DNA of 64,000 nt from NCBI RefSeq assembly GCF_027921745.1, contig NC_079239.1, forward strand, positions 1,515,501-1,579,500. Reading direction: 5' to 3'. Below the pieces are notes generated by a model that saw nothing but the letters and a program-made list of their open reading frames with translations, made no database searches and was not told where the DNA came from. The position numbers and the translations under genes were made by a program. This document shows positions 49,323 through 57,747 of this stretch, in pieces (position 1 is the first letter of the stretch; the number at the start of each line of letters is the position of its first letter). The DNA comes from Schizosaccharomyces osmophilus (lineage: Eukaryota > Ascomycota > Schizosaccharomycetes > Schizosaccharomycetales > Schizosaccharomycetaceae).

Positions 49323-49830
49323 TTAGATGTTAGAAGGGTAAAGCATGACGCGAAGGGATGCACCAAAGGTCTTGGGAGGAAGGTTGTGAACAAAGCGAGC
49401 ACGAACTACACCAGAGTTTCCGTGAACACGAGAAACGGTACTAGTCAGTAGTTAGTATTTTGTCAATTGTTTTTAATGTTTCCATTCTTATCCTCGACCG
49501 GTAATAGAGGAAAAGATGAAACTTCTTTATATAGAAAAGGCCAGCATAAGATCAGCAATATAGCCACGAAACCTCAATAACTAATCCATATAAATGGCGT
49601 CACATAAATCTATAGACTTACCCCCAGATGACACGGATCTTAGATCCACGGATAGGTTTGTTGCACTTGTAAACAAAGCAAATGCGCTTACCCAAGTAAA
49701 ATTGAGCATCTTCCTTGGAGTCGCAGCCCTCCACCTTAACCAAAGATGTGTTTGGTTGAATGTGGTGCTTACTGCGTTGGTAAGACAAGTGCTTGGCTTT
49801 AACGTATAATCTGTGTCCTTGGGCAGGCAT
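49323..49830 (-). CDS. rpl33: 60S ribosomal protein eL33 (yeast L33, mammalian L35a)
   Basis: Large-subunit ribosomal protein. Two exons (49622-49830 and 49323-49440) give 108 residues: [20 protein letters not shown], then [31 protein letters not shown], and after the intron [20 protein letters not shown] with the terminal MLYPSNI. Every family landmark is present. The intron (about 181 nt, GTAAGT donor, TACTAAC branch) is long for this window. A HomolD box lies 57 bases upstream of the ATG, as usual for fission-yeast ribosomal protein genes. S. pombe has two copies; which paralogue this is cannot be told. Confidence 0.97.
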
Positions 49831-50374: not shown

Positions 50375-51638
50375 TGCAGGAGGAAGATGATGATTTAGCA
50401 TTTTTTGCAAAACCAATAAAAAAGCCGCCTTTGAATTTGGCCAAAAGGTTAAGCCATTCTTTGTCAGACTCGGGTGAGTTCAATTTTGAACGTTGCAACC
50501 CAAAAGTGTCGTTTACTAACAATCTGTAGATGAAAACTCGGATCCAGAGCCCTCTGTCGAAGAGCCTCCTTTAAAGCAAATTCGTTCTGAAAGTAGAAAC
50601 CCCCCTGGGACGTCCACTTTGATGAGTACGGAAACGGAGCCCACTGTTTCGTCTACTTTACCTTCTGCTGCTTCTCCAAGGAGAAATGAAGATGACCCAT
50701 TGAACAGCGTACAGCACTCAGTGGACTCGGAGAATGCACCACACCCTTATGCGACAAGAACTGCAACTTCTATTCTTCGAAGCAACAGTTTCAACACCGT
50801 TGATACACCACCTCCAACGCCTTTCCTCGATGTTGACTTTAATAAACGACTTCAAGAGCTAGATCGTCAGGTGAAAGAGTTTCAAAACGTATCAAAGGAT
50901 CAAGCGGATACTGATGTAAGTCTTCCCTTACGTGATACTAGCTCTTCCAAGGATCCCGATACTGCTGCTTCTACCGGACTGAGAACTCATAGCCTACCGC
51001 AAACAGACTCCTCCAACCTGACTCCAGAGGACCCCCTTGCCTCACCACAAAGAGACCATGTACCAGTAATATTACAGCTGGCTGTAATCGGACAAAAGGT
51101 CCCTGGAAGTACCATGTTCCTACCAACGGATTGGGAGTCACCACTTCTTTTTAAGGTAAAATCCAACCAGCAATTCCGTCGCGTCCGAAATGCCTACACG
51201 ATGAGAAAGCGCGTTCAAGACGTTGTATTTGTGTTCCAAAATCGGAAACTTTGGGACTTTGGGACTCCTAAAGGCGCTGGAATGCTAAAAATCGACACTC
51301 GGTTAGTGATTCATGCCTTTCACAAAGTTGACTATGAGCTTCTACAGCAGCAAAGGGCTCAAGAAGAAGCAAAACTTTTTTCACGCGAAGAGCCAAAAGA
51401 AATCCCATTGAAACGAATTATATCTATATTAGTTCGACCAAAAAAAGGACAGGATGTCCACCTTTCGATACCAGTAGATACTTCGGTAAAAGATATTACT
51501 CGAAAGTATTGTAATCAAACAGAGATTCCATTTCATGAAGGCATACGACTAGAATTTGAAGGAGATTGGTTAGATCCAAAGGACAATTTGGAAAATCTAG
51601 AAATCGAGGACGAGGATCAAATTAATATCCTAATTTAA
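50375..51638 (+). CDS. rad60: DNA repair protein Rad60 (SUMO-like domains)
   Basis: Rad60/Esc2/Nip45 family protein that works with the Smc5-Smc6 complex and Ubc9 in recombination repair. Two exons (50375-50474, 50530-51638) give 402 residues, near the S. pombe 406. The donor is GTGAGT, with TTACTAAC branch and CTGTAG acceptor. The N-terminus (MQEEDDDLAFFAKPIKKPP) and Ser/Pro-rich acidic region resemble other family members. Two SUMO-like domains follow: SLD1 at about 218-310 and SLD2 at about 325-402, with LVRPKKGQDVHLSIPVDTSV and the ending LENLEIEDEDQINILI. There is no terminal di-glycine, as expected for a non-conjugated SUMO mimic. Confidence 0.94.
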
Positions 51639-51823: not shown

Positions 51824-53623
51824 TTAAGCAAATGCCTCTGGCGGAATAACACCTTGGTTTTTTAATTCTAAATATGAAGTCATGGCTTGTGGATAGTTCC
51901 AGTTATTTTGCTCGCAGCACATTCTAGAAAAATGATCGTTCAATCCCGTTTCCAACTTGAGTCTCAAAACCATTTGTTGTTGCATATCTTGATTGGGTAA
52001 TGCAGCAGGACCAGCCTGCTGATCATTCGTTGGCGCGGTTGACATATTTGGTGTAGATATAGGATTTGTTTGAGTGATCCAAGAGAAAGATCCAACATAG
52101 GAGCGGACAATCAACATGTCGTTGACAACTAACACACCTGTGGATCCACCAGGTAATATGATGATAACGCGATCAAAGTTCCTTGTAAGGCTTTTATTTT
52201 GGGGCTCTTCGAATTTTCCATGTACAACTATTTTTATGGCGCTTCCAATAGAAGGAAGTACCAAGTTCCATCCCTCAATTAACCATTGAGAAGAATCTGA
52301 CATATCATGCCGAGTTTTGGGTAATGCATTTACAGCAGCAACGATGGCTTCTTGTCCAACATACGACCGTGATGCCTGTTCATCTACTGAACGGACATGT
52401 AACAAGTTTCTGCTTTTCTTTTTGTAAATACCCCATTTCAGTGAATCAGATTTAGAAGGAACGGCCTTAGATCGAAGGTTGCTTGAGTTTAGAGAGACGG
52501 AAAAGGTAGCCTGAGGGCTATATACTTGTTGAATAAGAGCTGCACGGTCAGTATCCCAACCTTTAAAAAAAGCCTCGAGAAAGGGATAAATGAGCTGCTG
52601 GGTTTCTGGTTTATCAAAAAAGGGAGGGAAAGCCGGAAAGGGTAGAGAAGTATGAGCAGCCAAAACTTCTGGGTGAATTGGATTCCCATCTAGTAATCGG
52701 AGTTTAGGAAATCTTGTAACCATTTCCGATTGATATTGCAAAACCTGGTTTGCGTAGGTAGTTTGGCAGATTGGGTTGCCTACTAGGACCAGCTCTTGCA
52801 AATCCGGAAATTTCGTTTTAGGGGCCCAGGGCTCCAAGTCTTTGAGTGTGGAAATCCGATTATTTGCGATACTTAAATTTAACAGACGAGGCCAAGTTTG
52901 TGAAAGAGTGGTGACAGAAGACACAGAGTCAATGTTGTTATCAGATAAATTGACAGATACTACATCAGGATAATGAAGAGATGCAACCTTCATTAAAGCA
53001 GGAAACATTTTGCTCTTTGTAGAGGCTTCTGCTAGAATTCCCATTTCTCTTAAAAGAGCATCCTGTTGCAAGCTTCCTAGATCTAGGAATTTGCTTTCAG
53101 AATGGTAACGAGAACCAAGAAATTGCTTTAGCTTTTCAATGGTTTCATTTGTAGAAGAAGACGCTGGTGCCGATGGACTTTTTTCCGGAGCTGAAGAAGA
53201 AGAAAGAGAACGCAAAGCAGAAGTTGATCCTGAAGAAACCAACTGACGAGTTCGCTTCGACTTTGATTTTTTCAATGCAGAAGCAGCAGGAGAGGATCCA
53301 GTGATGCTTCTAATGGCCAATCGATCACCAGCAAAGGCTGTACCATTCAAACCGTTTAGCTTTGGAAAATCCTGACTTTTCACGACTGCTGTAGCAGAAG
53401 CAGGAGTAAGAACAAGATTCATAAGACGCACTTTTGCCTTTCTCCAAACAAAACTAATCAAATCGTCCTCTGAAGCTTTGGAATGACCTGTAATGACTAC
53501 GGATATTGGTGGTTCATGATGTGGCCGGTTCTTGTTAGGTGCTCGTTTGGCTTCTAGTGGCTTGTCGATTGCCATTTCATTTTCCTTGGCAGCATTCTTG
53601 CGATCACGCTTTCTACGCAGCAT
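51824..53623 (-). CDS. mex67: mRNA export receptor Mex67 (NXF1/TAP)
   Basis: General mRNA export factor that carries mRNPs through nuclear pores by binding FG repeats. The ATG at 53623 (MLRRKRDRKNAAKENEM) gives 599 residues, near the S. pombe 596; the frame stays open further upstream but without an ATG. Parts in order: basic RNA-binding N-terminus, RNP-like segment, Ser-rich linker, leucine-rich repeats (VVSVNLSDNNIDSVSSVTTL, LLNLSIANNRI, LQELVLVGNP), NTF2-like domain (about 375-545, pairing with Nxt1) and a C-terminal TAP-C/UBA domain with the NWNYPQAMTSYLEL helix that binds FG. Convergent with rad60. Confidence 0.93.
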   Translation of the reverse strand: MLRRKRDRKNAAKENEMAIDKPLEAKRAPNKNRPHHEPPISVVITGHSKASEDDLISFVWRKAKVRLMNLVLTPASATAVVKSQDFPKLNGLNGTAFAGDRLAIRSITGSSPAASALKKSKSKRTRQLVSSGSTSALRSLSSSSAPEKSPSAPASSSTNETIEKLKQFLGSRYHSESKFLDLGSLQQDALLREMGILAEASTKSKMFPALMKVASLHYPDVVSVNLSDNNIDSVSSVTTLSQTWPRLLNLSIANNRISTLKDLEPWAPKTKFPDLQELVLVGNPICQTTYANQVLQYQSEMVTRFPKLRLLDGNPIHPEVLAAHTSLPFPAFPPFFDKPETQQLIYPFLEAFFKGWDTDRAALIQQVYSPQATFSVSLNSSNLRSKAVPSKSDSLKWGIYKKKSRNLLHVRSVDEQASRSYVGQEAIVAAVNALPKTRHDMSDSSQWLIEGWNLVLPSIGSAIKIVVHGKFEEPQNKSLTRNFDRVIIILPGGSTGVLVVNDMLIVRSYVGSFSWITQTNPISTPNMSTAPTNDQQAGPAALPNQDMQQQMVLRLKLETGLNDHFSRMCCEQNNWNYPQAMTSYLELKNQGVIPPEAFA

Positions 53624-53993
53624 CCTCGCAATTCCAACAGAATGGTGAGAGATTGGTAAAGTGCAAACCGTTTTAGAACTAAGGCGAATGTCTAACACTC
53701 CCTTCCTTTTTGATAACCGAAATAGCTTAGTACTGTTAAGCTTCAATCTAAGCGAACGTGATAGGAAGACCCACGTAAAAACAAATCATCCAAGGTAAAC
53801 AAGGTTAAAAGTTTCATTAACAGGCACGAAAAAAAGTGAAATTCCCATGAAAATCATTGGAAATACCTAACATTCTCAAAAAGTCGTTTAACTACAGTGT
53901 ATGAATAGCCCTTCTTTTGAATGCTCCTTCATCATAAACACAAGCACCAGCCTTTCCTTCCACAGTACCCCATACTTACTTTTCCTTTCGGTT

Positions 53994-54039
53994 AGGGTAG
54001 GGTTGTTATAAAGCAGTCACGCCCAGTAAATATATAAGG
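53994..54039 (+). promoter_or_regulatory. HomolE + HomolD-like + TATA promoter cluster
   Basis: AGGGTAGGG (53994-54002) matches HomolE, CAGTCACG (54014-54021) matches HomolD at seven of eight bases, and AAATATATAAGG (54028-54039) is a TATA box, all in plus orientation. In fission yeasts this arrangement drives ribosomal protein genes and other highly expressed genes. No ORF follows within several hundred bases, which points to an RNA gene. Confidence 0.7.
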
Positions 54040-54059
54040 TTGCACAAACCCTACTTTTT

Positions 54060-54230
54060 CACTATCGTGCGGTTATATACCGACGCCCACATTCGTGTTG
54101 CTCGCTTTTCGATTATTTTTGTGGAATGGTTTGAGCGTCAGACGTGGGCCAGAGTCAAATGGACGTCTTAGTATCCATACAGTGATCGTTGAATTATCAA
54201 GCGGTCATTGTGGGTCGGTGGTTCAGAAAT
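54060..54230 (+). ncRNA. candidate structured non-coding RNA
   Basis: Directly downstream of the HomolE/HomolD/TATA cluster. A closing stem pairs ACCGAC(gc)CCAC at 54079-54090 with GTGGGTCGGT at 54210-54219 (10 bp, one bulge). Inside it are hairpins AGACGT/ACGTCT (54140-54145 with 54163-54168) and CGTTGA/TCAA(g)CG (54187-54203). GACGC/GCGTC (54082-54139) is an alternative pairing. The small ATGs inside stop within a few codons. Boundaries are guessed. I cannot match it to U snRNA, RNase P/MRP, SRP or a standard snoRNA box pattern. Confidence 0.5.
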
Positions 54231-55086
54231 GTCTTATAGATAGATTCTCTTGTAAGCATGAATAAAGAATTGAGTCGGTTTTATTTAAAAGTGGTTTTGA
54301 ACAAGTATTATTTGAAAAAGTGTGTTGAAAAATTCGTAGAAATAAAAATAGAAGCGTACATGGAGGTCTGTACATCGGAATATTAGCAGTACACATAAAG
54401 ATCAACGAGTGTCTTAGTACGACAGTAGGAGCAGTTCGATTATTCTTTACGATTGATTTCTCTTTTGGCTTGAATTCAAGTTGCTTCATGATCGATGAAT
54501 TGGCAAACCATCAAGAAACGTAAGTACAGGGAGACTACCTTTAACCATCTTCGGCTATTGATTTTTTTCTTTTTTTGTTTATTTACATATGAGTGAATAA
54601 ATGGAGCATGGGTCAGTTTGATAGTTGCATAAGCAAGTATAGCTATATGCTATTATAATTTCTTTTAGTAATTCTATGTCTTTATACTAGTATTATTATA
54701 TGGTTCTCTTATCAGACTATCGTGATACTTTCCCTCGTACCGCTGTGAGCAGTATCACAGTACTGTGTTCCTTGGATTTACTATATAAACACAAACTTGA
54801 CTTCAACAACTCACCTCGTCCAACGAACCAACGTTTCAAAAACCCTTAGAAAAAACATTTAGCAGATATAGAATCTTGCTCTGTGTTTTCAATTTAAAAC
54901 TTCACAGCAAAACCTTCTTAGGTGGTGTTTGTGACATATTTGTACAGGAAGAACAGGTTTTGAATCTATACAAAGGAGCTCAATTTGCCAAATTTTCCTT
55001 GTTAGAAGTCCGTTGATTTAGAATTTATCTCTTATTTTTTATTACAGACTTACTACCCATTTCCTTTCTTTTTTTTGCTATCCACG

Positions 55087-57747
55087 ATGCAAGTTACCGT
55101 ACCGTCATCTGGATCAGCTTCTGCTTCCCTAGCAAAGGACGATAATCGTAGCGTTCTACCCACGAATGTCAAACCAATTCATTATGACCTTAGTCTCTAC
55201 CCAGACTTGGAGACATTTGCTTATGGTGGTAATGTCAATGTCTCTTTAGACGTGATTGAGGATTCAGACACGATTACCCTGCACGGAATAAATTTACGTA
55301 TCTTAAGCGCTGCTTTGGAATGGGGTCATCAAACCATTTGGACAGACAACGTTACTTACAAAGATGAACGCATTGTCCTTCAATTCTCCTCCATTGTGCC
55401 TGCTAATTCCGTTGCAGTTTTAAAGCTTGCTTTCACTGGTGTCATTTCCAAGGGTATGGAAGGCTTTTATCGTTCTAGTTATGTCGATGCCGATGGAAAC
55501 ACCAAGTACCTTGCTACCACTCAAATGGAACCTACTAGTGCTCGTCGCGCATTCCCTTGTTGGGATGAGCCTGCTTTGAAGGCAACCTTCAGCATTGACA
55601 TAACCGCAAAGTCCAATTATACTATTTTAAGTAACATGAATATCTCTGAAGAAGTTATCAAGGATGACGTGAAAACTGCTCGTTTCGCAAAGACTTGCCG
55701 CATGTCTACCTATTTATTGGCTTGGATCGTTGCCGAACTTGAATATGTTGAATGCTTTACACCTGGTAAACATTGCCCTCGTTTACCTGTCCGTGTCTAC
55801 ACTACTCCTGGCTTCGCCCAGCAGGGTAAATTTGCCGCCGATTTAGGTGCTAAGACCATAGATTTTTTTTCTGGTGCCTTCAACGAAGCATATCCCTTGC
55901 CCAAATGCGACATGGTAGCTATTCCTGACTTTGAAGCTGGTGCCATGGAAAACTGGGGTCTCATTACTTATCGTCTCTCTGCCATTTTGGTTTCTGAAGA
56001 TTCTGCTGCCACCGTCATTCAGCGCGTTGCCGAAGTTGTCCAACACGAGCTGGCTCACCAATGGTTCGGCAATTTGGTCACTATGCAGTTCTGGGATGGC
56101 TTGTGGCTTAACGAAGGTTTTGCTACGTGGATGTCTTGGTTCAGTTGTCACAACTTCTATCCCGAATGGAAGGTTTGGGAATCATATGTCACCGACGAAC
56201 TACAATCCGCCCTTGCTTTGGATGCTCTTCGTTCTAGTCATCCCATTGAAGTTCCTATTATGCACGAGTATGAAATTAACCAAATTTTTGATGCCATTTC
56301 TTACTCCAAGGGATCTTGCGTCATTCGTATGATTAGCAAGTATGTTGGAGAAGACGTTTTCATTAGAGGTATTCAAAAATACATTTCCAGACATCGTTAC
56401 AACAACACCGTTACCGAAGATTTATGGGCTGCCCTATCTGAAGAGTCTGGTCAAGATATTTCTACCATGATGAAGTGCTGGACCAAGTTCACCGGCTATC
56501 CCGTCATCAGTATCTCGGAAACCAAAGAAGGAAAACTTCGCATTGAACAACATCGTTTCTTATCCACCGGTGATGTTAGCCCTGAAGACGACAAGACGCT
56601 ATACTGGGTCCCATTAAAGTTGAAGACTATTAAAGATGGAAAGCCCACGGTGGATGAGAAGATTGTTTTGACAGAAAGATCTGTTGAGCTTCCCCTTTCA
56701 CAAGAATCTCATGGTGCTTACAAACTTAATTCAGAACAATCTGGTATTTATCGAGTACAATATACGACCGATCACTTAAAGAGACTTGCAAAGGTTGCCG
56801 TTGAAAAGCCCGAATTCCTCAGCGTCGAGGACCGTGCCGGTTTGATTGCTGATGTTGCTTCCTTATCCAGAGCTGGCTATGGGCATGTTAGCAGCACTCT
56901 CGACTTGGCCAAGACTTGGAAAGAAGAACCAAGCTTCGTTGTTTTCACAGAAATTTTAGCTCGTCTAAATGGTATCAAGTCCACTCTACGCTTTGAAAAG
57001 CCCGAGATTGTAGATGCTTTGAAGAAGTTCATTTTGGAGATTTCTTCCGTCAAAGCACACAAACTCGGATGGTCTTTCGACAGCTCTGATGATCACATCA
57101 GCCGTCAATTCAAGAGCACAGTCTTTGGTTTTGCTGGTGTCAATGGTGACAAGAAGGTTGTCTCGGATGCTATCAGAATGTTCGAAGCATACGCTGCGGG
57201 TGACCAAAAAGCCATCAACGACAATCTCCGCTCTTCTGTTTTCATTATCGCAGTCCGTCACGGTGAGCCTAAGTGTTGGGATCAATTGCTGGATATTTAC
57301 AAGAAGTCAAATGACCCATACGTTCGCACCAATTGCCTTAGAGCATTTGGCTACACTGAAAACGACGCATACATTGAAAAGACCCTTCAACTTGCCTTGG
57401 ATCCTATTGTCAAAGAGCAAGATTTGTACTTGGTATTGTCAAGCTTGTCTAGTCATAAGAAGGGTGTAGTCACTATGTGGAAGTTTGCTACAACCCATTG
57501 GGAGCAACTCTTGAAGCGACTTCCCATTGCTGGTACCATGCGTGGCCATATTGTTCGAATCATTACCGGCGGATTTACTCACAAGTCGGATATTGACACC
57601 ATCAAAAAGTTTTTTGCCAACCAAGACATCAAGTTGTACGAACGTGCACTTCAACAATCTTTGGACAGCATTTCGTCCAGCTCTAGTTTCATTGAGAAGT
57701 CGTTGAACGACATTACAGAATGGCTCAAGATTAACAATTACGTCTAA
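55087..57747 (+). CDS. ape2: M1 zinc aminopeptidase Ape2
   Basis: Cytosolic or vacuolar leucyl/arginyl aminopeptidase of the M1 family. The first ATG in frame (55087; [19 protein letters not shown]) gives 886 residues, close to S. pombe Ape2. Seen: N-terminal beta domain ([19 protein letters not shown]), substrate-anchoring GAMEN motif at 285-289, zinc motif HELAH at 320-324 with the third ligand Glu343 in LNEGFATW, proton-donor Tyr region ([15 protein letters not shown]), and the ERAP1-like helical C-terminal domain. All catalytic residues are intact. Codon use is notably biased (CGT, AAG, GTC), suggesting high expression. Confidence 0.95.

Follow-up and report, generated by a model that had tools for sequence, protein, structure and literature searches.

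The window analysed here, a 64-kb stretch of the Schizosaccharomyces osmophilus genome, contains a mex67-like gene on the minus strand (51824-53623) and an M1 peptidase gene on the plus strand (55087-57747), with no ATG-initiated ORF of at least 100 aa between the two. On the other side of the mex67-like gene, a ubiquitin-like protein encoded at 50622-51638 is closest to a solved rad60 chain, and an eL33 gene region occupies 49894-49624 on the minus strand. The first 69 codons of eL33 stop at a GTAAGT-like junction, after which an intron would follow, and this exon is closest to chain 9axt_Br, with 61 of 69 residues identical. Both of these reference chains are presumably from S. pombe, which would fit a Schizosaccharomyces species other than S. 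pombe itself. No tRNA genes were found in the 64-kb window.

Three promoter-type boxes lie between the mex67-like and M1 peptidase genes (53994-54039), all on the plus strand and in the order and at the positions given by the sequence-only reading, the earlier description of this locus. They are a HomolE box, AGGGTAGGGT (53994-54003), which is the proximal activating sequence, a HomolD box, CAGTCACG (54014-54021), which is the core promoter element, and a TATA-like box, ATATATAAGG (54030-54039). An excerpt of PMC10253590 gives the HomolE consensus as ACCCTACCCT or AGGGTAGGGT, located 0-32 bp from HomolD, and the HomolD consensus as CAGTCACA/G, located 39-52 bp before the start. The HomolE box here is an exact match to the inverted form of its consensus, the HomolD box matches the octamer, and the 10-bp gap between them falls within the quoted range. 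The HomolE sequence AGGGTAGGG occurs twice in the window compared to 0.11 expected, and two or more copies were seen in none of 100 shuffles. HomolD alone (CAGTCACR) shows no enrichment, with 2 matches against 2.30 expected; the ordered HomolE-HomolD pair, at most 30 bp apart, is present once in the window and in 0 of 100 shuffles. The AACCCTA motif at 54047 has 4 copies in the window, where 6.0 are expected. The second HomolD match of the window, CAGTCACA at 49894-49887 on the minus strand, lies roughly 57 bp upstream of the start codon (ATG at 49830) of the eL33 ribosomal protein gene, and is a built-in example of the standard use of the box.

A covariance search against Rfam (release 15), the check suggested by the sequence-only reading, assigned the segment downstream of the boxes to RF01438 (S_pombe_snR35, a box H/ACA snoRNA). 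The match covers 54064-54232 on the plus strand and the entire model (1-172 of 172), with 137.9 bits and an E-value of 8.5e-31, far above the gathering score of 35 bits. RF01438 is the sole Rfam family at gathering level in the 64-kb window, and a permissive search of 53600-55090 returned this match together with one at chance level. The earlier proposal that a structural RNA is encoded on the plus strand between mex67 and ape2, behind a ribosomal-protein-type promoter, is borne out; the proposed "unknown family" is wrong, as the RNA matches snR35, an H/ACA family with its own Rfam model, and an unknown RNA family is ruled out by the end-to-end alignment. The segment is almost certainly an independently transcribed snR35 gene of a Schizosaccharomyces species, its transcription being predicted. 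It belongs to an ordinary, already catalogued family, and its orphan appearance is only apparent. The snR35 family has already been annotated by others, and the S. osmophilus genome paper, in the part available, predicted snoRNA genes using Infernal and BLASTN with S. pombe queries (PMC10085805). What looked like an orphan RNA is resolved as a known housekeeping guide RNA.

The snR35 segment shares with RF01438 its full length, both hairpins, the 5′ leader, and the guide halves, and 132 of 172 columns are identical to the consensus. The model alignment shows a hairpin-hinge-hairpin-tail layout, and both hairpins form when they are folded apart (-23.7 and -23.0). The 5′ leader (54064-54084) is identical to the Rfam consensus in 21 of 21 columns. 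It is followed by a 5′ hairpin with a pseudouridylation pocket (54085-54149), whose basal stem pairs 54085-54090 with 54144-54149. Within the pocket, the left guide UUCGUGUU (54092-54099) can form eight pairs, including two G-U, with 18S AACACGGG just 3′ of [UC], and the right guide GUCAGA (54137-54142) can form six pairs, including one G-U, with 18S UUUGAC just 5′ of the target U. Relative to the consensus, the guide is conserved on both sides, in 9 of 9 columns on the left and 6 of 7 on the right. The hinge has a degenerate AGAGUC at the H-box position (54151-54156), and the 3′ hairpin (54160-54226) is followed by the ACA-box position (54227-54229), which reads AAA in place of the AUA in the consensus and lies 3 nt before the 3′ end. 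H/ACA RNAs generally keep a guide-to-box distance of about 14-16 nt, and the distance here is 14 nt, from the right-guide start at 54137 to the box at 54151.

Among the 32 consensus pairs of RF01438, 23 are unchanged, two are changed on one side, four on both sides, two are broken, and one falls in a gap, leaving standard pairs at 29 of the 32 positions; this compares one sequence with one consensus and is hence a small test. All four both-side changes fall within the 3′ hairpin, whose upper stem has diverged from the consensus with paired changes. The earlier description of an ORF-less, structured segment holds, since it is free of ATG ORFs of at least 100 aa and folds somewhat better than its shuffles (-52.8 kcal/mol, z -2.09, with 6 of 200 shuffles as good). 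Few pairs are listed in the curated structure, which is why the bare Rfam pairs have an energy of -19.8, far above this minimum. When the whole RNA is folded to its energy minimum, other pairs take the place of the hinge and of the 3′ hairpin's basal stem, the hinge forming its own small hairpin.

The target of the 5′ pocket was examined using a 1800-nt eukaryotic 18S in L001 and a second 18S in L002, both from organisms other than the host. The eukaryotic rDNA covers 2050-4963 of L001, titled Planomonospora parontospora, and 1-5151 of L002, titled as a Dehalococcoidia MAG; it is probably contamination in both, and the 18S length together with the motif position (U at 1191) suggests a budding-yeast rDNA contaminant in L001. 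For the L001 18S, U1191 is the best of 502 uridines tested, with 8+6 pairs around [UC], and the equivalent site is the best of 483 uridines tested in the L002 18S. Shuffled guides reached the U1191 score in 3 of 2000 cases. In a structured scan of both strands of the 64 kb, the snR35 pocket gives the best of 247 matches to the 1191 site. An equally good structured match occurs in 18 of 48 first-order random windows, so that the gene could not have been located from the guide match by itself, which counts only because Rfam places it.

In budding yeast, snR35 guides the pseudouridylation of U1191 in 18S (PMC7277114; target also in PMC3542256), which is later converted to m1acp3-pseudouridine and is required for 18S to mature normally (PMC7277114). 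In S. pombe rRNA, m1acp3-pseudouridine is reported at one site only, which lies in 18S (PMC4605285). From the computed pairing, the S. osmophilus snR35 is predicted to guide one 18S uridine in helix 31 (U1191 in budding yeast) to pseudouridine. This predicted rRNA target is the one that excerpted sources give for Saccharomyces cerevisiae snR35 and human ACA13 (18S U1191 and U1248, respectively), and the three RNAs are likened by this target. Budding-yeast snR35 is said, in an excerpt of PMC3542256, to lie in an opposite-strand ORF, whereas no ATG ORF of at least 100 aa overlaps the gene here. A diverged snR35 copy, with guide function changed or lost, could be imagined from the degenerate H and ACA positions, as AGAGUC compared to ANANNA and AAA compared to ACA each retain two of three fixed letters and leave the strict motif unmatched. 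However, the Rfam consensus itself departs similarly from the strict boxes (AGAGCC and AUA), and the guide pairs are intact, making such a copy very unlikely.

The sequence-only reading also described a 10-bp long-range stem. The complementarity is real, but an unbroken helix is not formed, because ACCGAC-GC-CCAC (54079-54090) can pair with GUGGGUCGGU (54210-54219) only around a 2-nt bulge. Seven long-range pairs are present in the minimum-energy fold, joining 54078-54084 to 54214-54220, whereas 54085-54090 are bound to 54144-54149 in the H/ACA basal stem, which takes the inner part of the long stem. Compared to the Rfam consensus, the sole change in the two long-stem strands is at 54220, an A that is G here with its pairing to U kept. 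Both strands hardly vary, and there is therefore almost no variation by which to judge the stem. The proposal that this stem defines a new family of structural RNA could appeal to the seven pairs of the minimum-energy fold and to the leader ACCGAC and 3′-pocket GUCGGU, which are the same in the window as in the consensus. It is nevertheless scarcely credible, given the full-length match to a known family, the absence of the stem from the curated Rfam structure, the competition between its inner part and the 5′ hairpin's basal stem, and the both-side changes that support a 3′ H/ACA hairpin.

For an RNA that is snR35, the long-range pairs could have another meaning. They would leave the 3′ pocket covered on its right strand: the leader UACCGAC (54078-54084) might fold onto this strand, GUCGGUG (54214-54220), so that the RNA would have an alternative, closed form in which the pocket is masked. 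All 7 of the 7 pairs of the closed form are present in the minimum-energy fold; we consider the existence of this form unlikely. The 3′ pocket was scanned with sliding pocket ends against 18S, 5.8S, and the two ends of the LSU (model positions before 1290 and after 2710 of 3401), and the 16 sites listed had raw scores of 25-30 with no outlier, none of them convincing as a target. The longest run of pairing between the leader and rRNA is 7, in 18S, no more than the average of 7.0 among shuffles, which go up to 11. A conserved leader able to cover the 3′ pocket is one of two side leads from this analysis that hold any new value.

The boxes might alternatively serve mex67 in reverse, with the downstream RNA a silent relic, as an inverted HomolD is reported to be functional (PMC10253590, in excerpt), but this has next to no chance of being correct because the mex67 ATG (53623) is about 370 bp off, the boxes precede the RNA in order, at the spacing of a start site, and both halves of the guide persist, which would be needless in a relic. 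For the snR35 gene, HomolD lies 43 nt and the TATA-like box 25 nt before the 5′ end of the RF01438 model. With this model end as the predicted start, the 43 nt fall within the quoted 39-52 bp, and consensus boxes, spacing, and start distance all correspond to a HomolE/HomolD promoter as described in the same excerpt. The start near 54060 expected by the sequence-only reading agrees with the spacing from the boxes to the Rfam 5′ end, and this agreement suggests that the mature 5′ end of snR35 is the transcription start site. The relative orientation of HomolE and HomolD differs from that of the fully active pair quoted in the excerpt of PMC10253590, so that their strength may differ here.

HomolD is present at several snoRNAs, and HomolD with TATA is found at U3, as described in an excerpt of PMC12458480; by analogy, the snR35 promoter is of a known kind, the ribosomal-protein type. 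A description of an snR35 promoter of this type was not found in the literature searched, the coverage of which is incomplete. The fission-yeast non-coding RNA promoters with HomolD and TATA (U3 and NC30/RiboCop; PMC12458480, in excerpt) likewise have both boxes before the RNA. They differ in arrangement, as NC30 is quoted with TATA at -50 and HomolD at -20, whereas HomolD is upstream (43 nt) and TATA downstream (25 nt) at snR35, with HomolE added. Budding-yeast snoRNA promoters similarly combine sites for general ribosome-biogenesis factors, Tbf1 or Rap1, with TATA (PMC7277114, in excerpt); a difference is that the protein reported to bind HomolE in vitro is recombinant S. pombe Fhl1 (PMC10253590, in excerpt).

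A plausible pathway would begin with Pol II starting at about 54060-54073 under the HomolE/HomolD/TATA cluster, as judged from the box spacing. The two-hairpin RNA would join the H/ACA proteins, as is established for the class, and its 5′ pocket could select the helix 31 uridine of 18S for pseudouridylation, the pairing being computed and the modification presumed. This pseudouridylation would be the first step towards m1acp3-pseudouridine, and the promoter might tie snR35 output to the ribosomal protein genes. The gene would then be one more snoRNA gene with ribosomal-protein promoter elements, an arrangement that would couple rRNA modification to ribosome production.

A second HomolE/TATA cluster is located on the minus strand of the window, with ACCCTACCCT at 58251-58242 and TATAAAAAGG at 58222-58213. 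The cluster is followed, within 58252-58015 on the minus strand, by a stretch that has two stem structures with an H-box-like AGATCA (58100-58095) between them and no ATG ORF of at least 100 aa, and its fold has a z of -2.62, with 1 of 200 shuffles as good. Rfam gave no match at gathering level in this segment, and a permissive search gave three weak matches, the best with 17.8 bits where the gathering score is 45. Its two pockets are able to pair around LSU positions 2826 and 2880, the sites served by budding-yeast snR34; snR34 is named for 2826, and a triple deletion that includes snR34 loses 2880 along with other modifications (PMC11121408, in excerpt). The snR34-like candidate was spotted by eye, guided by the rRNA sequence and the snR34 targets, before the scans were written.

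In the structured scan, the 2826 and 2880 matches of this candidate rank 6th of 834 and 21st of 562, respectively, and their joint pair ranks 1st of 373 overlapping joint pairs in the window (single-site threshold of 18). A joint score as high was reached in 9 of 48 first-order random windows (single-site threshold of 20). The candidate received no H box in the structured scan, and an extra hairpin in its 5′ right strand brings the guide-to-H-box distance to 31 nt, outside the usual rule. In an unstructured scan of 1068 uridines, 2826 (score 29) and 2880 (25) were not among the best 12 listed, the best of which scored 37, and for 2880 the match picked as best in the region lay elsewhere, with an equal score. 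The unstructured scan thus failed to set the candidate apart: across 2126 window segments, 278 score at least as high for 2826, 903 for 2880, and 148 for both sites. The evidence is no more than suggestive, and as judged from the sequence, the segment is likely an H/ACA RNA and possibly snR34. This possible snR34-like RNA, 4 kb away from snR35 and missed by Rfam, is the second side lead of any new value.
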